From a virus: DNA of 34,439 nucleotides. The translations under genes and the position numbers were made by a program. The DNA is taken from positions 1 to 34,439 of the IMG/VR virus record IMGVR_UViG_3300047121_000388. One strand, 5' to 3'. The stretch's first letter is position 1. Each line of letters begins with the position of its first letter. This document shows, one piece after another, positions 32 through 28,124 of this stretch. Below the pieces are notes generated by a model. The model saw only the letters and a list, made by a program, of their open reading frames with translations, did no database searches and was not told the DNA's origin.

Positions 32-51
32 CCCCCCCCCCCCCCCCCCCC
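32..51. repeat. 20-base poly-C homopolymer
   Basis: Twenty consecutive C residues lie 22 bases before the GTG start of the integrase. In-frame TAG at 59-61 separates the tract from the coding sequence, so a length change would alter promoter or leader spacing rather than the reading frame. Tracts of this kind slip easily during replication and are also a common place for assemblies to break or miscount, so the true length is uncertain. Confidence 0.9.
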
Positions 52-73: not shown

Positions 74-1138
74 GTGAGGCATGACGTAGTAAAACTCGGC
101 AACGCCTCCGCCCGCCTTTGGCTTGGCAAAGATAACCGCTGGAAGTGGCACGGCTACGAGGCCGGGCGAAGAGTTCTAAAATCCTCCAAAGACCTTCATA
201 AGGCCCGCAAGAAGGCCAAGGAGGGGCTGGCGGCCATGCGCGATGGCAAAGCGGTCATGGCCGATCTGTCGCCAGCCATGCTTTCGGAGTTTCTGTCGTG
301 GAGATCCGCCCGCATTGAATCGCCCACGGTGGCCGAGGGCGCGGCCAAATACCTAGCGCACCTCGCGGCCCGCAAGGTGCAGGAAACTCGGATCGTCAAG
401 TCCGACCTAGAAAAGTTTGCTGCCGCCCATCCTTGCAAAATGTCCGAGGTCAGCGTGGAGCAAATCGGCAATTACCTCGCCGGCCTTGGGGTCGGCCCCC
501 GCCGCTTCAACAACGTGCGAAGCGCCTTGGTATCGTTCTTCCGCTGGGCACGCACCACGGGCCTTGTGCCAGACACAATGACCGCCCCAGAGAGGACGCA
601 TCTTATGCCGCTGCCAAATGAGGCCGTGGCTGTCTACACCCCAAAACAATTCCGCGCCTTGCTGGCCGTGGCCCCAAAGGAATGGCAGCTTGGCTTTGCC
701 ATTGGCGGATTGGCGGGTTTGCGGACGGAAGAGATTGCCGGGCTGCGATGGGAAGACATCAAGCTAGGACGCAAGCTGATCGAGGTGCGCGCCGAAATTT
801 GCAAGACGGGCAAGCGGCGCCTAGTTCCCATCGTGCCGTCTTTGGCAAAGATCATCCGCGCCAGCGAGCCGTGCGCGCACAATATGGTCGTGCCTCGCGA
901 GCGCATCGACAACGCTGTGAAGCGCATCCGCAGGGCCGGTGGCTTTTGGATAAAGAACGGCTTGCGTCACAGCTTCGGAAGTTATCGCTGCGCGGTGGTG
1001 AAAAGCGTCGGCCAAGTGGCGCTAGAAATGGGCAACTCCGAGGCGATGGTCCGCAAGCATTACCTAGAAATGCAGACATCGAAGGCTGCGCGGGACTGGT
1101 TCAATACTGGTTCGATTTTGCCAAAAAAACCAGATTAA
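74..1138 (+). CDS. int: Tyrosine recombinase (phage integrase)
   Basis: A 354-aa site-specific recombinase expected to insert the phage into the host chromosome. Residues 1-60 form a basic arm-type DNA-binding region, 85-165 a SAM-like core-binding domain, and 185-345 the catalytic domain. Visible catalytic positions are Arg217 (GLRTEEIAGLRW), Lys244, Arg298-His299 (GLRHS) and the nucleophile Tyr330 (RKHY). Two positions that are usually His are Asn here: Asn295, before GLRH, and Asn321, in MGNSE. The start is GTG, fixed by a TAG stop just upstream, with no clear Shine-Dalgarno sequence. It transcribes away from the left edge, towards a candidate attachment site. No excisionase is obvious next to it. 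Confidence 0.95.
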   Translation: MRHDVVKLGNASARLWLGKDNRWKWHGYEAGRRVLKSSKDLHKARKKAKEGLAAMRDGKAVMADLSPAMLSEFLSWRSARIESPTVAEGAAKYLAHLAARKVQETRIVKSDLEKFAAAHPCKMSEVSVEQIGNYLAGLGVGPRRFNNVRSALVSFFRWARTTGLVPDTMTAPERTHLMPLPNEAVAVYTPKQFRALLAVAPKEWQLGFAIGGLAGLRTEEIAGLRWEDIKLGRKLIEVRAEICKTGKRRLVPIVPSLAKIIRASEPCAHNMVVPRERIDNAVKRIRRAGGFWIKNGLRHSFGSYRCAVVKSVGQVALEMGNSEAMVRKHYLEMQTSKAARDWFNTGSILPKKPD

Positions 1139-1270
1139 CAGAGTGCCGGCGGAGGGGGTCGAATTGACCGCTGGGGGTAAAACTGATAAACTGCGGCTAA
1201 CATAGTCGCAAGAATTTGCGAATTTTGACCAATTAACAGGCTCCGATTTTTGGTTCGATTTTGGTTCGTT
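1097..1270. other. attP: Candidate phage attachment site (attP)
   Basis: Positions 1144-1163 read, on the minus strand, like the 3' end of a tRNA or tmRNA: TTCGA T-loop, C-rich stem, then acceptor stem and A. The segment is flanked by two pairs of direct repeats. TGGTTC occurs at 1097 and 1108, inside the 3' end of the integrase gene, and at 1251 and 1262. Each pair is offset by 11 bp, about one helical turn. A 13-bp word (TGGTTCGATTTTG) is identical at 1108-1120 and 1251-1263. A small inverted repeat, CGCAA/TTGCG, lies at 1207-1220. The layout, tRNA-like core between paired arm-type sites beside int, is what is known for tyrosine-integrase phages. The assignment is inference. Confidence 0.5.
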
Positions 1271-1314
1271 TTTAAGGCTTTGGCATAGGGCTTTGACATA
1301 CGCCGCGCGTTTGC

Positions 1315-2061
1315 GTGGCGACGATCACCCGAAAGTGGAAAAGATGGGTAGCCCTGACTTGTTCACATGGGTCCGACATCGACCCTAAAGCTCGCAAGGC
1401 CGCGCTGACCTTCATTGAGCGGTGGAAACCCGACCAGCGCCTTCACCTTGGCGATGCTATCGACCTTGCCTGTCTACGCGCCGGGGCTCGCCGCGACCCA
1501 GACGAACCAGACCGCGCTCAATCGCTCATGGACGATTTGCTCTCTGGCCTCTCGTTCCTGCACGAGCTTCGTCCGACCATCTATTTCCACGGCAACCACG
1601 AGGCCCGCGCCGTCGCGCTAACGCACAGCGGCAACCAGATCGTTGCCTATGCCGCCGGGGCCGTCATGGCAAAGATGCACGATGGCCTAGCTCGCTACAA
1701 AACCGAGATCGTTCCATATCGCGGCATTCTGAGGGAATCGGTGCGCCACTTAGGCGGCACAGCATTTCTCCACGGCGCTCTCTTCAACGTCTCAGCCGCC
1801 CGCGACACGGCGGAAACCATCGGCACCCACTGCGTATTCGGCCACACGCACAGAATTGCCGTAGAAGCCGCTAGGACGCACGCAGACGCCATCGGCTACA
1901 ACATCGGGTGCCTCACCCGTCTCGACATGGAATACGCGGCCTCGAGGCGCGCAACGTGCGCTTGGAGGCATGGCCTGGCTTATGGCGAATATTTGCCTGA
2001 CGGCACCGGCTGCACCGTGAACGTGCTGACGCTTTCCCCGCATTACCGCCTCCCCCTATGA
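1315..2061 (+). CDS. Calcineurin-like metallophosphoesterase
   Basis: A 248-aa protein with the signature blocks of metallophosphoesterases in order: Cys16-Ser-His18, Gly46-Asp47, Gly93-Asn-His95-Glu, His153 and Gly176-His-Thr-His179. These ligands bind two metal ions and hydrolyse phosphomono- or phosphodiesters; the substrate cannot be told. The first block normally begins with Asp (DxH), but Cys stands there, so metal site 1 may be altered. The GTG start is the only one leaving room before block 1, and no Shine-Dalgarno sequence is visible. It is the first gene of a three-gene plus-strand operon, overlapping the next gene by ATGA. Related phosphoesterases are frequent phage accessory genes. 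Confidence 0.85.
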   Translation: MATITRKWKRWVALTCSHGSDIDPKARKAALTFIERWKPDQRLHLGDAIDLACLRAGARRDPDEPDRAQSLMDDLLSGLSFLHELRPTIYFHGNHEARAVALTHSGNQIVAYAAGAVMAKMHDGLARYKTEIVPYRGILRESVRHLGGTAFLHGALFNVSAARDTAETIGTHCVFGHTHRIAVEAARTHADAIGYNIGCLTRLDMEYAASRRATCAWRHGLAYGEYLPDGTGCTVNVLTLSPHYRLPL

Positions 2062-5817: not shown

Positions 5818-8262
5818 TCAGTTGAATATAATCTCAACGCCGAGCAGGCGGGCATCTACGGCGAGGGTGTCTCCGCCTGCGTCCGCATCACGATACACTT
5901 GAAGCTGGATCGGCGTGTTGGCCGCTGGCGTCCCGCCAATGGTCACGGCACTGGTCGCCGCCGAAACGTGCATATCGTCAGCCGCAAGCAGCGTGTCGGT
6001 CGCCGTCTGCGCGGTGCCGTGGGCGGTGTCGAGGGCATCATCGTTGGCGAAGGCGCGGCCTTGGAGGCCCCAGATAACATCGCCGCTGCCCGAAGCTGCG
6101 GTCCAATAGAAGCGGGCCGTGATGGTCGAGTTGTTGTAATTGCTCGGCATGATGACGAGTGCCTGCGCGAACTCGTCGGTGCCTGCGTCAAAGAGTAGCT
6201 CGTCGAAGTTTTGCTTGTTGGTCGAAGTCTCGCGGGAGTCCACGCCGCAGCCTGTGGTCGTGCGCGGAATCCATGCGGAGGCGGGAATCCAGAGGTTTGT
6301 TGCGCCGCCTGTCGCGGTGACAGTCATCGTCGTTCCGCTAATCGACAGCCCCGACCCCGCCTCCAGATACCGCAGCTTTCCCTCGCTATCGTCGAAAAAT
6401 ACGATGCGGTCGGCGTTCGGGTCATCGGCCACCAGATCGCTGCCAGAGACGCTCAAGACATCGGCTGTGGATGCGCCGACTGCGGTGACGCCCGCCCCCG
6501 TAGCCGACAACTCCCCCGCCGACAAGCTCAAGCCCGAGCCGATTTGGATCTCCTCGACGGCACCTGTGCTGCTGCTTGTCCTTCCGAGGATGCGGGCGGT
6601 GGCTTGCGTGAGGCCGCTGGTGGTGATGGCTCCTGCCGCTACCGCGCCAACATCTCCTGCGGTGGTTGGGATGTCTGTAACCACTGCGAGAGTTCCCGAC
6701 TGGTCGGGAATCGTGAGGGTTACGTCATCGGAAAGTTGCGACTGGACATCGAAGGTGGCGGCAAATTCGTTGTCGAGGTCTTTGAGCGAGATGTTTTCCG
6801 TAAGTTCAATCGTGCCAGTTTGCGGGACGATGATCTTTGGATTCCAACTGCTGCCATTGTAAAGCGTTAGGCGGTAAATGCCGTCTGGGGGCTGGCCAGG
6901 AATTGCGAGACCGTGGGCGAAGCCCGAAGAAATGTTGTGGTCTTGAAAAACAATAAACTGCGCCGATCCCCCAAACATGACAAGTGGAGTTTGTGAGGTG
7001 CCGTCTTGGCAAACAATGTGCGCGAGATGTTCCCCACTGTTGATCCAGTTAAATGCTGCTCCTCCCTGCCCGCCGCCGACAATCAGCGAATCAAAACGCG
7101 GCGTTGTGTCATCGGCTATCGAATCGCTGCCCGCATTGACCCCGCCAGATAGCGTGATGGTTTGTCCGTTGCTTGGAACTTGTGATGTGCTTCCGCCATA
7201 GTCAGAAACGCTGGCAGTGTTTGACGGGTTGGCCGAGTTCCATGCGGCAAGAACTGTTTCTATATCGCTCGTTCCGTTAAATGACAGCGTGATGCTATTG
7301 CCTGCGGTTCCTGCATCGTTGGCAATGATCCAAACGGTGCCCGTCATGCCTGAGACGGTGCCGAAGAAAGATGCTTTTGAGCCTGCGGTGTGACTTGCGG
7401 CGTGCGCCACAGCCGTCCTCGCATCGCTTAACCGCACATCGTCCCCAGCGCAAAAGCTCCCTGCCGTGTTAGAAAATGAACCCGCCTCGACTACGCCGTT
7501 GGTGCCTGTTTTGAGCGGGAGGTTGGCGGTGGTGCCGATCTTGCCGTCGTTGGTGAGGTTGCCGTGGGTGTGGGAAGCGGCTGCAAATGCGGTGCTGTCT
7601 GCGGTAGCGGCGGTGCCAAGGCCGCTGACGCTGGTGTTAGGCACGCTGTCGCCAACGAAAAGGAACGTGCTTCGGGCGCGGCCCACAACCGTGGACAGCT
7701 TGGCTTTTTCTATTGAGCCATCCCAAGCGGACAGCCAAGGCCACGCAGCGTTGTCATCTTCGCTGGATTCAATGATGTTTTGCGTATTTGGCGAGCCATC
7801 CGTGATATGCCAGCGAAGACTCTGAAAGAAAACATAATGGCCCGTGGTTGTGCGATAGACCCGTTTGCTGTTAAGCGTGCTGTCGGGTATCGGGTAGTAA
7901 ATCCCGTTGCCGTCTGCAAATTCGTAGGTGAAAAAAGCCGCCGAATCGTCGTTGCCGCTGGTGTCGATTTCGGAGCCGTCGAGAATAACGGTGCCCGTCT
8001 CGCCATTGACCGAAGACACGCCCGACGCCGGGGCTGCGCCCCATTCGGGGGCCGTGCCGCCGCTGTTGACCTTTAGAATTTGGCCTGCCGTGCCGATGGG
8101 CAGGCGTTGCGCGGCTGAAGCGCCTTGATAGAGAGTGTCGCCTTGGGTGGTGAGCGTGCCCAGACCGCTGCCCGTTGCGCCTTGCGGGCCTTGTGGGCCT
8201 GCCGGGCCAGCCACTTCAAGCACGGTAGCGACTTGCTCGATGATTTCGATTGTGTCGCCCAT
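5818..8262 (-). CDS. Large tail fibre protein with collagen-like repeat
   Basis: An 814-aa fibre. The N-terminus (1-17) is followed by a short collagen-like Gly-x-y run (19-32: GPAGPQGPQGATG). Next come modules typical of phage fibres: LTTQGDTLYQGASAAQRLP with APEWG around 37-77, a Gly/Ser/Thr-rich shaft, and ILGRTSSSTGAVEEI with GSGLSLSAGELSATG near 560-590. The C-terminal 150 residues (from about WIPASAWIPRTTTGCG) form a beta-rich unit that includes MPSNYNN, FYWTAASGSGDVIWG and DTLLAADDMHV. The same kind of C-terminal unit is familiar from many unrelated phage tail proteins. Expected role: host attachment. Confidence 0.85.
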   Translation of the reverse strand: MGDTIEIIEQVATVLEVAGPAGPQGPQGATGSGLGTLTTQGDTLYQGASAAQRLPIGTAGQILKVNSGGTAPEWGAAPASGVSSVNGETGTVILDGSEIDTSGNDDSAAFFTYEFADGNGIYYPIPDSTLNSKRVYRTTTGHYVFFQSLRWHITDGSPNTQNIIESSEDDNAAWPWLSAWDGSIEKAKLSTVVGRARSTFLFVGDSVPNTSVSGLGTAATADSTAFAAASHTHGNLTNDGKIGTTANLPLKTGTNGVVEAGSFSNTAGSFCAGDDVRLSDARTAVAHAASHTAGSKASFFGTVSGMTGTVWIIANDAGTAGNSITLSFNGTSDIETVLAAWNSANPSNTASVSDYGGSTSQVPSNGQTITLSGGVNAGSDSIADDTTPRFDSLIVGGGQGGAAFNWINSGEHLAHIVCQDGTSQTPLVMFGGSAQFIVFQDHNISSGFAHGLAIPGQPPDGIYRLTLYNGSSWNPKIIVPQTGTIELTENISLKDLDNEFAATFDVQSQLSDDVTLTIPDQSGTLAVVTDIPTTAGDVGAVAAGAITTSGLTQATARILGRTSSSTGAVEEIQIGSGLSLSAGELSATGAGVTAVGASTADVLSVSGSDLVADDPNADRIVFFDDSEGKLRYLEAGSGLSISGTTMTVTATGGATNLWIPASAWIPRTTTGCGVDSRETSTNKQNFDELLFDAGTDEFAQALVIMPSNYNNSTITARFYWTAASGSGDVIWGLQGRAFANDDALDTAHGTAQTATDTLLAADDMHVSAATSAVTIGGTPAANTPIQLQVYRDADAGGDTLAVDARLLGVEIIFN

Positions 8263-19476: not shown

Positions 19477-20040
19477 TCAACAGCCGCAAGCAGGCTTGCT
19501 GCGGTAATCGTAAAGGTAGATCGGATGCTCTGCGGCCATCGCCTCGGTTTTGAGGTGGGGCAGGATCGCCAAAGCGTAGTCGTAGTCCTCGCCATAATCT
19601 CGGTCCCCAAATCGAGCCTTGAGGGCAATTTCCCGCCGCACCGGGCAAAGGTGGTGCGGGGTGCGGTTGTTGCCGCTCCATGCGGTGTTTTTGCGGTATT
19701 TGAGCGAGTGGCGGAAGACGGGGTTTGGTGACCAGGGAACGCCGTCTCGCTTCAAATACATGGACAAGCCTACGCAGTCTGGCTGGCTTTGCAGGGCGCT
19801 CATGATGCAGGCAACGTAATTGGTGGCGACTAGGTCATCGTCATCCACAAAGACAATGTATTCGGCCCGCGCTTCTTCGATCATGCGCCTGCGCTTCGGG
19901 CCGATGCGGTCGCTGCCGGGGTCCACTACGATGCGGGCGGCGGGCTCGTCTTCGATTTGCGGGACCAAGACGGCCAAGAGTCGCGCCAGCGCCTGCGTGC
20001 GGGCGGCGGTCGTGGGGATGAGAATGTCGAGCGTTACCAT
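19477..20040 (-). CDS. Glycosyltransferase, GT2-like (short)
   Basis: A 187-aa protein with the GT-A hallmark YIVFVDDDDLV at 61-71 (Asp66-Asp69), preceded by a strand/helix start (VTLDILIPTTAARTQALARLL). The C-terminal half includes a GEDYDYALAILPHL segment that resembles the acceptor/base region of family-2 enzymes (Glu/Asp-x-Asp). It is shorter than usual (about 230-300 aa), so it may be a minimal transferase. It starts inside the end of the double glycosyltransferase gene (ATGGTAA overlap), so the two are made together. Confidence 0.8.
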   Translation of the reverse strand: MVTLDILIPTTAARTQALARLLAVLVPQIEDEPAARIVVDPGSDRIGPKRRRMIEEARAEYIVFVDDDDLVATNYVACIMSALQSQPDCVGLSMYLKRDGVPWSPNPVFRHSLKYRKNTAWSGNNRTPHHLCPVRREIALKARFGDRDYGEDYDYALAILPHLKTEAMAAEHPIYLYDYRSKPACGC

Positions 20041-21749
20041 CCCTTCGCCACGGCGTCAGCGTTGCGGCGAGCAAAGACCTCGCGGCCTCGGGCATTCGCC
20101 TCTGGGTTTTGCTGCCGGCGGTAGGCTTCGTCGGACTCCGCGCCAGTGAATGCCGGGTGGTCGTGGTAAAGCTGAATGTGCCGCCCGTTGAGAACCTTGG
20201 TGTCGCGGTAAGCTCGGAAGCTATATTCCGTATCCGACCAGTAGCCGTCGTATTCAGGGCAGAGCAACCACTCGCGCCCGAGCCACCATCGCCAGTTGTA
20301 GCACATCGCGACCATAAGCGGGTCGCCTTCTGCGCGGAATCCGTCGTGCAAGTGCAGCACTGCCGGCGCATCCATGTTGCCCTCGAAGGCGCGGACGATC
20401 AGTTCGTCCCAGCCGTGCGGAACATAGAGGTCATCCTGAAGCATGAGGAAAATCTTCGCCCCCGATTCGGCAGCGGCGCGGGCTGCGGCGTTGTAATTCG
20501 CCACGGCAGAGGCGTGTCCCTCGGGAACAGCTTGAGAGACGGCGTGCGGGTAGTGCTGCAATGCCTCTACAACCGCGCTGTCGCCTTCGTTCACGCCGAA
20601 GTAATAGGCAACCTGGTCGGGCTTTGCGGCCCTTGCTAGGGCCATTTCCCGCACGGCAATCGCTTTTTCTGGGCGGCAAGTCGGATGGCCGATGGCGATG
20701 CGGACCTTGTTGCGTTTGTGATACGCCTTGCGGATGCGAGCGGCATCGTCAGGTTTGCCGCTTTTAGCCAGGGCAAGGCACTTCAGGTCATGCGCTCGCC
20801 ATCCATAGAGTGAGGCATCGTGCGTCCAGCTTGCCTCGTTTGGTTCTTCCTGCGCTTCCATTGCCTTAACATAGGCCAACGCTTTGTTAGCGGACCCGCG
20901 CGCTAGGTGGGCCTTCGCAAGTTCGGCGTAGCCTTCGCGCCGATGCGGCATGAGGCGCACGGCCTCAAGGAGCGGGCGCTCGGAACCTTCGATGTCTTTG
21001 ATCCACCGGCCAATCATTTGGTAGGCCGAAAACTTCTCCTCGTCGCCCAGATCGTCGCGGCCTGTGGCAACCACAGCGGCAGCCATCGCCTTCGGGATGT
21101 CTTGCGCCATCTCGCATTCGCGGAACAAAAACCACCACTCGCGCCCCGTGCGCTCGGCCTCGGGAATGGCCTCGAGGATGCGCCGATTGCGGACTACGCT
21201 GGCACGCTTGTTGTTGGCCGGAATATGGACAACTTGCAATTCCATTGCCCATGAGAGCTTGGCTTCGGGGTCATGCTCAACGTCTTCATGCACCGCATTG
21301 ACCCACTTGCGATAATGCTTCTTGCTGACCAGCCGCGCGCGGCGGGCGTAGCTGCCCGATGCGTCCACGATGTAGGGCGCATAGATCACATCGCCCTGGG
21401 CGTCACCGCCCTCGCGGATTAGTCGCAAGACGGCTTCGGCGGTGGGCGAAAGCAGATCGTCGCAGTCGGCCCACATGAACCAGTCGGTGTCCTCGGGTGC
21501 CAGCGCCCAGCTTTGCGTGCGTGCGGCTGCGAAGTTATCGACGTGCTCCCATTGCCTATCGGGCGCGTTCCAGTATTCGCCTGTGATGCAGCCGCGCTCT
21601 TTGGCGATGTCGAGCGTCCTGTCGGGCGATTGGTTGCCGATGGCGCGGACAACCGATACGGAATCGAAGTGCGGCTGGAAGGAGTCAAGGAAGCGGCCAA
21701 TCATGGCCTCTTCGTTGCCCGCAATTATCCCAAGATGTATTTTTGCCAC
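20034..21749 (-). CDS. Two-domain glycosyltransferase with TPR-like middle
   Basis: A 571-aa protein with three parts. Residues 1-175 form a GT2 domain (GIIAGNEEAMIGRFLDS start; acidic motif WADCDDLL, Asp95-x-Asp97; WVNAVHEDVEH). Residues about 190-345 are helical repeats of TPR type. Residues 348-571 form a second transferase domain (IAIGHPTC; MLQDDLYVP with Asp439-Asp440; GYWSDTEYSFRAY). N-terminal domains of this type act on proteins or O-antigen in bacteria. It begins at GTG, 12 bases after the U-tract of a terminator behind the capsid gene. It is probably part of a virion or surface glycosylation pathway. Confidence 0.82.
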   Translation of the reverse strand: MAKIHLGIIAGNEEAMIGRFLDSFQPHFDSVSVVRAIGNQSPDRTLDIAKERGCITGEYWNAPDRQWEHVDNFAAARTQSWALAPEDTDWFMWADCDDLLSPTAEAVLRLIREGGDAQGDVIYAPYIVDASGSYARRARLVSKKHYRKWVNAVHEDVEHDPEAKLSWAMELQVVHIPANNKRASVVRNRRILEAIPEAERTGREWWFLFRECEMAQDIPKAMAAAVVATGRDDLGDEEKFSAYQMIGRWIKDIEGSERPLLEAVRLMPHRREGYAELAKAHLARGSANKALAYVKAMEAQEEPNEASWTHDASLYGWRAHDLKCLALAKSGKPDDAARIRKAYHKRNKVRIAIGHPTCRPEKAIAVREMALARAAKPDQVAYYFGVNEGDSAVVEALQHYPHAVSQAVPEGHASAVANYNAAARAAAESGAKIFLMLQDDLYVPHGWDELIVRAFEGNMDAPAVLHLHDGFRAEGDPLMVAMCYNWRWWLGREWLLCPEYDGYWSDTEYSFRAYRDTKVLNGRHIQLYHDHPAFTGAESDEAYRRQQNPEANARGREVFARRNADAVAKGW

Positions 21750-25877: not shown

Positions 25878-27662
25878 TTACTCTGTTGCGGGGTTGGTTG
25901 AGCGCCATTGCGCCATGATGGAATCAACCAGCACGAGGGCCATCTTTTCGCAGTCGGCCAAGTGGTTCGGCCCCAGCCTTTGCCATTTTGCCTCGCCGTC
26001 TTTCTCAATCAGTGCCTCGCCTTGAAGCTGCCCAACATAGTCTTTTGCAATGTCTCGCGGCAGGTGCCACCGACCACGCCCGTCGCGCAGGATGTCGTGA
26101 TACAGTCTTGCCTGCCAAAAGTGCGCGTCGAATTGCACGGCCCATAGCACTGCACCACCTGACACGATTTGCTGGAACTTGTAGGGCTCGCGCAATCCCT
26201 GGCTGACGGTTCGGCCCTTGGCCGCGACAAAGAGACCGCCCGACTTGGCAACGAAATCGTATACACCCGCCGGGGTCTTGGCCGCGTAGCCCGCGTCCAC
26301 AATGCCGCGATAGCACTTGTAGTGCTTGAACTTGTCCATGATACCGTCCCATCCGACCATTGCGCCGTAGTCGAGAAGGTAGCTTGATCCGTCCTCGTGC
26401 AGTTCGCGCACGATCCACCACATCTCGGTCTGCTGAACGTCGATGGACATAAGTCTCCCGATCACCTTGCCTTCGGGCGCGGCCCCCATCGTGTAACGAG
26501 GCGAGGCGTCCACGCGGTCGCGGATCATCTGCGTGGTGATAAGCGCGCCGTCAGGTTTCCACGGCAAGGCCAGTTCGCGGTTGTTAAAGTCTTGCAGTCC
26601 TCCCGGCGCATCGCGGTCTTGCAGGAACTTGACCGCCAAGTCGGCCCACTTGCGCCAAGGCGCATAGAGCGAAGAAAGGTGATAGCTTCGCCGCCCTGGC
26701 TCGGCGGCAAGCTCTGTCGCCCGCCACTCCCCACGCTCTAGCATCAAAGGCTTGTCGTTCTCCGTGTGCGCGTGGCCGCAGGCAGGGCAAACGCAGCGCG
26801 CCGTGTCGGCCACCTTGGTCATGTCCCAGCCCTCGTCTTGCTTGGCTGTCTCGTCCCAGCGGATGTGTTCCCATTCCAAGGCCCACGCTTCGCCGCAGCC
26901 AAGGCAGGGCACGAAGTATTTGCGTTGATCGCCCTTGACCCATTCAGTCCATATCGCCCCGTCTTCGTAGGTCGGAGTTGAGGTCGTTACGATAATGTGT
27001 TTCGGGTAAGTCGCCACGCGAGCCTCGGCAAGTTGCAACGGCGCGGACTCTTTGCCGCCCTTGGCGGGGAACTTGTCCAATTCGTCCATGCACAGAGCGG
27101 CAATCGAGCGCGAGGAAAGCGAGGCCGGGCTGTTGCTGCCCGTGAACCACACGCTCATGCGGTCAAAGTGCTGCTCAAGGAGTCGATACTTGTCAGGGTC
27201 GGCCTGCTTGTGCCGCGTCAAGGTCGGGTTTTGATCTATGAGCGGCATCCAGCGAGTCTCGGAAAATGACCGCGCCAAGTGGGTGGACGGCATAACCCAA
27301 AGGCAGGGAGACGGGGCCACGTCCAACTTGTAGGCCATACCCACGATGATGGCCGTGGTCTTGCTGGTCTGAGCGCCCCACACCAAGGCAAGCCGCCGCA
27401 CACGCTCGTCAGCAAAGCATTCCAACACTTCGCGGACATACGGAGTGCGCTGGGTCAGATAACTCCCCGGCTTGTTGGTGATGCGCTCGGATAACTTGAG
27501 ATTTGACTCGGCCCACGCCACCACGCCTGGCTTCGGCGGTGTCAGCGTTACCTCGTGCCCTGCGGCCCACGCTTCGGCTAACCCTTCGCGGTCGCCTCCG
27601 ACAAGGACGGCGGCAGGGTCGCTAAGTGCTTCCGCAGCATCGAAGTCGCCTGCTCTCCCCAC
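25878..27662 (-). CDS. Large terminase subunit (gpA family)
   Basis: An ATP-driven DNA packaging motor and nuclease, 594 aa from GTG 27662. Residues 96-102 are GAQTSKT (Walker A; the usual Gly before Lys is Ser), MDEL at 192-195 is the Walker B acidic pair, and IVTTSTPTYED follows. A zinc-like pair of CxxC motifs (Cys253/256 and Cys292/295) interrupts the chain. The nuclease half begins near RLMSIDVQQTEMWW. The frame is open 154 codons further upstream, but that part overlaps the small terminase gene and has a Gly/Arg-rich shadow composition. GTG 27662 overlaps its end by 85 bases and gives a length normal for gpA. Confidence 0.9.
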   Translation of the reverse strand: MGRAGDFDAAEALSDPAAVLVGGDREGLAEAWAAGHEVTLTPPKPGVVAWAESNLKLSERITNKPGSYLTQRTPYVREVLECFADERVRRLALVWGAQTSKTTAIIVGMAYKLDVAPSPCLWVMPSTHLARSFSETRWMPLIDQNPTLTRHKQADPDKYRLLEQHFDRMSVWFTGSNSPASLSSRSIAALCMDELDKFPAKGGKESAPLQLAEARVATYPKHIIVTTSTPTYEDGAIWTEWVKGDQRKYFVPCLGCGEAWALEWEHIRWDETAKQDEGWDMTKVADTARCVCPACGHAHTENDKPLMLERGEWRATELAAEPGRRSYHLSSLYAPWRKWADLAVKFLQDRDAPGGLQDFNNRELALPWKPDGALITTQMIRDRVDASPRYTMGAAPEGKVIGRLMSIDVQQTEMWWIVRELHEDGSSYLLDYGAMVGWDGIMDKFKHYKCYRGIVDAGYAAKTPAGVYDFVAKSGGLFVAAKGRTVSQGLREPYKFQQIVSGGAVLWAVQFDAHFWQARLYHDILRDGRGRWHLPRDIAKDYVGQLQGEALIEKDGEAKWQRLGPNHLADCEKMALVLVDSIMAQWRSTNPATE

Positions 27663-28117
27663 GGGAATGTCGAAAAATCCTGCACCATTGCCGAGATCAG
27701 CCCACGGATCGCCGCCACCGTCTCCGCCTTGTTGAGTGTCGCCTTGGTCATGGACAGGAATTGCCCCAACTCCTGCTCGGCTTGTGCCACGGCCTTTCGG
27801 CTGTCGCGCCACGCGCCGGCCAGTTCGGCCACGGTTCGGCTGTTGGCCTCCTCCGAGTTCGCTGCCGCCTTCCACAATTCGTAATGGCGAATCTCCCCCT
27901 CCGCCGCCCGGTCGAGTCGCGCCCTCGGGCCCAGCGCCGGGTTGGTGCTGGTCGTTGGCGCGGCCACCTTGCCCGACTTGCGGCGGCGAATGTTCGCGGC
28001 CAGCCATGCCCTCGCCGCGTCCACCGAGTCCGTTGGCATCCCCTGCGCCTTCCAGAGCGACACGCTCGTCTGGTTGGCGTCGAGCGCCTTCGCCAGTTGG
28101 ATCTGCGTCAGGGCCAT
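27578..28117 (-). CDS. Small terminase subunit (Nu1-like)
   Basis: A 179-aa DNA-binding protein that recognises the packaging site. Residues 3-25 (LTQIQLAKALDANQTSVSLW) form a helix-turn-helix like lambda Nu1, followed by GMPTDSVDAARAWLAANI. The central part has charged helices (65-140), and the C-terminal part probably contacts the large subunit. The ATG is the first gene of the packaging operon, right behind a 210-base control region. It overlaps the large subunit gene. Confidence 0.8.
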   Translation of the reverse strand: MALTQIQLAKALDANQTSVSLWKAQGMPTDSVDAARAWLAANIRRRKSGKVAAPTTSTNPALGPRARLDRAAEGEIRHYELWKAAANSEEANSRTVAELAGAWRDSRKAVAQAEQELGQFLSMTKATLNKAETVAAIRGLISAMVQDFSTFPWGEQATSMLRKHLATLPPSLSEATAKG

Positions 28118-28124
28118 TGGGCAT

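Follow-up and report, generated by a model that had tools for sequence, protein, structure and literature searches.

The window analysed here is the whole stretch of 34,439 nucleotides of viral DNA, and its positions 1097-1272 very probably constitute the attP of a temperate Verrucomicrobia phage, which would recombine its core with the 3' end of a host tRNA-Leu(CAA) gene. The attP reading, first made from the letters alone, is now strongly supported, because the core, two pairs of arm-type repeats and their overlap with the 3' end of the integrase gene are conserved in about 30 relatives, and because the core is identical to the terminal 3' segment of a bacterial tRNA gene.

The core and its tRNA-Leu(CAA) identity

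The core lies at 1144-1163 on the minus strand, the integrase stop codon ending 5 bp ahead of it. Its reverse complement, TTCGACCCCCTCCGCCGGCA, is composed of a T-loop (7 bases), the 3' strand of a T-stem (5), the 3' strand of an acceptor stem (7) and a discriminator base. All 20 positions are identical to the end of Verrucomicrobia tRNA-Leu(CAA) genes (genomes G283, G408, G432, G463, G442, G445, G447, G438 and G439), whose encoded sequence lacks the CCA end; in such a putative host, this tRNA end would be the attB. The exact 20-mer was matched in just 1 of 387 genomes of the phylum, because tRNA-Leu ends vary, and probes based on the tRNA gave more. The sequence-only reading had seen here the 3' end of a tRNA or tmRNA and had suggested searching bacterial genomes for a gene ending in the core; that search returned tRNA-Leu(CAA), so that the tRNA part holds and the tmRNA part falls. 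Indeed, although the T-loop and acceptor ends of tmRNA resemble those of a tRNA and tmRNA is the target of Cluster K phages (PMC3203893), the exact 20-mer terminates tRNA-Leu(CAA) genes, and the relatives of clade C (see below) carry a Leu anticodon loop and variable arm, which contradicts a tmRNA core and leaves it practically no probability.

The identity to a tRNA-Leu ending in GCA starts exactly at the T-loop, and the positions beyond are near chance (4/24, 6/14 and 5/26). From this extent and from the precedent of mycobacteriophage Ms6, whose strand exchange was placed in the T-loop (PMC1762012), we propose the 7-bp T-loop (1157-1163, minus strand) as the strand-exchange (overlap) region. 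A proposed core-type half site, CCGGCGG (1146-1152, plus strand), is mirrored about the T-loop centre, 1160, by a second one, CCAGCGG (1168-1174, minus strand), which agrees with it at 6 of 7 positions; this inverted repeat was noted post hoc and is absent from some relatives. The variation of the half sites across the clades counts against the attP explanation. That the site is a genuine attP whose crossover lies outside the T-loop, at the T-stem/acceptor junction or at another point of the 20-bp core, is unlikely, although it deserves real weight: identity delimits just a 20-bp interval, and Islander pools T-loop and junction sub-sites, which are hard to distinguish (PMC4383910), but the exact start of the identity, the mirror repeat centred on the T-loop and the mapping of Ms6 all speak for the T-loop.

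Among 2.9 million IMG/VR contigs scanned, 18 contain the exact 20-bp core, and each time it immediately follows an integrase gene whose product is 65-78% identical to that of the window. ARAGORN detected no tRNA gene near the core in the examined stretch of these 18 contigs, and the sites are therefore attP rather than attL or attR. An integrase beside a tRNA fragment also occurs at prophage ends, so that the window might have held the attL or attR of a prophage or its remnant; this extremely improbable reading is contradicted by the presence of both arm pairs on one DNA, by the missing 5' part of the tRNA (no full tRNA-Leu adjoins the core in the window) and by the recurrence of the same layout in about 30 viral contigs.

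Elsewhere in the window, ARAGORN reports a tRNA-Thr (cgt) at 27380-27477 on the minus strand, within the terminase large subunit ORF (25878-28124), which is probably a false positive. On the minus strand, 20034-21749 encodes a glycosyltransferase-like protein in which two PHROGs (13126 and 14945) match separately.

Arm-type repeats and the adjacent integrase

The motif TGGTTC starts at 1097, 1108, 1251 and 1262, exactly the two pairs offset by 11 bp that had been reported, and we define from it four putative arm-type sites, all on the plus strand: left outer TGGTTCAATAC (1097-1107), left inner TGGTTCGATTT (1108-1118), right inner TGGTTCGATTT (1251-1261) and right outer TGGTTCGTTTT (1262-1272). 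Arm-type repeats thus occur on both sides of the core. The 13-bp word already noticed on both sides is TGGTTCGATTTTG, found without mismatch at 1108-1120 and 1251-1263, and the left pair (1097-1118) does lie in the last codons of the integrase gene (ORF 74-1138). In dinucleotide-preserving shuffles of window 950-1420, one 6-mer arranged as two pairs offset by 11 was obtained in 0 of 3000 cases, a two-pair layout with any offset of 7-29 in 2 of 3000 and a 13-bp exact direct repeat in 1 of 300. In the rest of the window, TGGTTCRAT with one mismatch allowed occurs at chance level and without clustering. Two other elements were observed near the core: ATTAACAG, at 1134-1141 and 1232-1239, on either side of it and at the same places in the close relative L002, and GAATTTGCGAA (about 1214-1224), kept between the window and L002; both are possible accessory-factor sites.

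The adjacent gene (74-1138, plus strand) encodes a tyrosine integrase of 354 aa, as indicated by its ORF, Pfam PF00589, a PHROG integrase match and a structural model, with predicted arm-binding, core-binding and catalytic domains. The AlphaFold model built with 24 homologues reached a mean pLDDT of 84.9 (an earlier 10-sequence model, with a pLDDT of 53, was left out) and shows a four-strand-plus-helix domain at residues 3-56, followed by the core-binding and catalytic domains. Its top VIA-align match is full-length lambda Int (1z1b; Z 16.8, residues 1-337), aligned from residue 1 with an rmsd of 18, the domains therefore being placed differently, and residues 84-337 superpose on 1z19 at 3.0 A. 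The protein is thus predicted to be a lambda-type integrase whose residues 3-56 form an N-terminal arm-binding domain.

Judged by motif positions, residues 295 and 321 (NGLRH and MGNS) are Asn where tyrosine recombinases have catalytic His, and we take them to correspond to lambda H308 and H333; across 24 relatives, the Asn at 321 never varies and that at 295 hardly does. A run of C also precedes the integrase gene on the coding strand (window 32-51). Such a run, of 8-20 C, is found 17-47 nt upstream of the start in 24 of 28 relatives checked (a count in which L014 is a second copy of the L002 contig), and it is usually the sole run of at least 8 C or G in the piece examined. Its length is not constant even among closely related phages (C10 to C16), and several contigs start within it or shortly before it. 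The run might act as a switch of integrase expression that is prone to slippage, or might simply be a homopolymer that is hard to assemble; a literature search on a C run upstream of integrase found nothing.

Conservation, covariation and the tRNA sub-site

A second set of relatives was picked by integrase alignment alone, which avoids selection on the core. It consists of 32 phages at >=51% integrase identity (51-78%, the window being counted in), 31 of which are readable past the integrase, and all 31 possess the core; the contig of L098 ends within the core and matches up to that end. These phages are distributed in clade A (the window and L002), group B (65-69%) and clade C (51-55%, support 100/100). 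A pair of sites spaced by 11 bp is present on each side of the core, always in direct orientation, in 31/31 cases, the outer right site being weak (TGGTC) in L092 and L093. The inner site reads TGGTTCGATTT in clade A and TGGTTACTTTC in B and C, inner left and inner right switching together; the two pairs of L002 are identical over 22 bp, and the outer sites are more degenerate than the inner ones in B and C. Relative to the start of the core, the right pair begins at +106 to +109 in all clades and the left pair at -47 in A, -57 in B and -68 in C; the steps of 10 and 11 bp on the left would fit a helical-phase constraint. In every clade the left pair is part of the integrase coding sequence, and a constraint at the DNA level may therefore underlie the W-F and the G that are conserved near the integrase C-terminus. 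At the DNA level, the phage records of INPHARED gave no match to window 900-1500.

Repeats that come in pairs, separated by one turn, close to a gene can act as operators, and arm sites may also regulate; the TGGTTC pairs could accordingly have served a repressor or integrase autoregulation, unrelated to recombination. Against this stand their position at the 3' end of the integrase gene, their placement around the tRNA core at fixed distance and the fact that their letters on the two sides change together according to integrase clade; we consider operators alone very improbable.

Phage attachment sites have been divided into class I (anticodon loop) and class II (T-loop) (PMC1762012). In the window, as in the rest of clade A and in group B, the tRNA-Leu identity covers the 20-bp segment from the T-loop to the 3' end, as in class II, and does not extend from the anticodon loop. 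In group B, 9-12 of the 24 positions that come next still agree, which may be a remnant or may reflect a core-type site in common. In clade C, the identity runs from the anticodon stem-loop through the 3' end, as in class I: it covers 58/58 positions in 6 of the 8 members compared, 56 in L100 and 51 in L106, and L105 matches at 60/60 the tRNA genes of five genomes of one family, which also includes a 'Verrucomicrobia subdivision 6' MAG. The tRNA block of clade C is almost invariant and the DNA to its right varies. By the usual classes, and as far as these identities indicate, one integrase family would hold both class I and class II sites. We regard as evenly balanced the proposal that the crossover has moved, in either direction, between the T-loop, used with a 20-bp core in A and B, and the anticodon loop, used with a 58-bp core in C, of the same tRNA-Leu(CAA), with integrases 51-78% identical. 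The two sub-sites are about three helical turns apart, and the distance of the right arm to the tRNA 3' end is unchanged.

Other features were observed in clade C and beyond. The core of L106 (about 7068-7125) differs from other clade C cores in its anticodon-stem and acceptor letters; the anticodon-stem change preserves pairing and agrees with a different form of tRNA-Leu(CAA), of which L068 has an example, and this suggests a different host. Its acceptor-end pattern had 0 matches in the 213 genomes of the order, and near variants occur in L176 and L177. The clade C phages L096-L107 contain a hairpin like TTAACCCCCTGATTTACAGGGGGTTAA between the integrase stop and the core, which after insertion would stand just 3' of the restored tRNA-Leu and might be its terminator. 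A distant phage, L110, has a 13-bp perfect inverted repeat centred on the T-loop.

Proposed integration and comparison with known systems

We infer the following course of binding, DNA bending, crossover and integration. The integrase would hold the 11-bp arm sites, arranged as two direct pairs, with its N-terminal domain and the core with its other domains, and an accessory factor would bend the attP DNA. The integrase would then bridge arm and core sites and capture the 3' end of tRNA-Leu(CAA), with strand exchange most likely in the 7-bp T-loop. Since the phage copy from T-loop to acceptor is identical, insertion would leave the tRNA gene complete, with the integrase and tRNA genes convergent, 3' end facing 3' end. 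In the distant relative L003, a tRNA-Val faces the integrase 3' end 37 bp away, which is the architecture predicted after insertion. No integrated close relative (>40% identity) was found in 387 genomes of the phylum, 213 of the order and 21 of the family; the integrases found in the 387 phylum and 213 order genomes are only 30-40% identical, and in the family that has the exact clade C tRNA, 21 genomes yielded no integrase at E<=1e-30. This is weak evidence, because the genomes searched were one per species and many were fragmentary. The distant integrated relatives (30-40%) also adjoin tRNAs, mostly on the 5' side of the integrase, a placement that counts against the attP explanation.

The attachment site and tRNA target of an uncultured phage family are fixed from sequence alone, and the target links these phages to Verrucomicrobia hosts and provides a candidate attP/integrase pair for a phylum short of genetic tools. 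The arms that covary across clades form a natural data set on the co-evolution of integrase and arm sites, and the contrast between T-loop and anticodon loop in sister clades is a testable change of sub-site; if true, the choice of sub-site by the integrase would be an evolvable trait that can be tested directly.

The predicted N-terminal arm-binding domain likens this integrase to the two-site-binding integrase of lambda (1z1b, Z 16.8). Lambda likewise has its attP at the integrase 3' end, but differs in an attB that lies outside tRNA genes, in the uneven distribution of its arm sites and in having defined IHF sites. Mycobacteriophages L5 and Giles share with the window paired arm sites in direct orientation, L5 differing by its extra arm sites (PMC3203893) and by a crossover in the anticodon loop (class I), like clade C and unlike the window (PMC1762012). 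In the Cluster K mycobacteriophages CrimD, Adephagia and Anaya, two pairs of 11-bp arm repeats flank a tmRNA core, and the arm letters likewise vary between relatives, there along with the integrase N-terminus; however, the right pair is inverted there whereas the four sites of the window are all direct, the core is tmRNA instead of tRNA-Leu(CAA), and attP is 5' of the integrase gene, whereas that of the window is 3' of it and partly inside it (PMC3203893). The attP of Ms6, a class II site in the T-loop of tRNA-Ala with strand exchange proposed in the 7 bp of that loop, resembles that of the window by its short core (26 bp against 20 bp) and by an identity that runs from the T-loop to the 3' end without reaching the variable region (PMC1762012), and differs by its mycobacterial tRNA-Ala where the window has a Verrucomicrobia tRNA-Leu(CAA). 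The architecture of this attP is therefore already known, Ms6, L5, Giles and Cluster K being the closest; the host group and the Verrucomicrobia tRNA-Leu target are new, and the apparent difference between T-loop and anticodon loop within one integrase family is possibly new.
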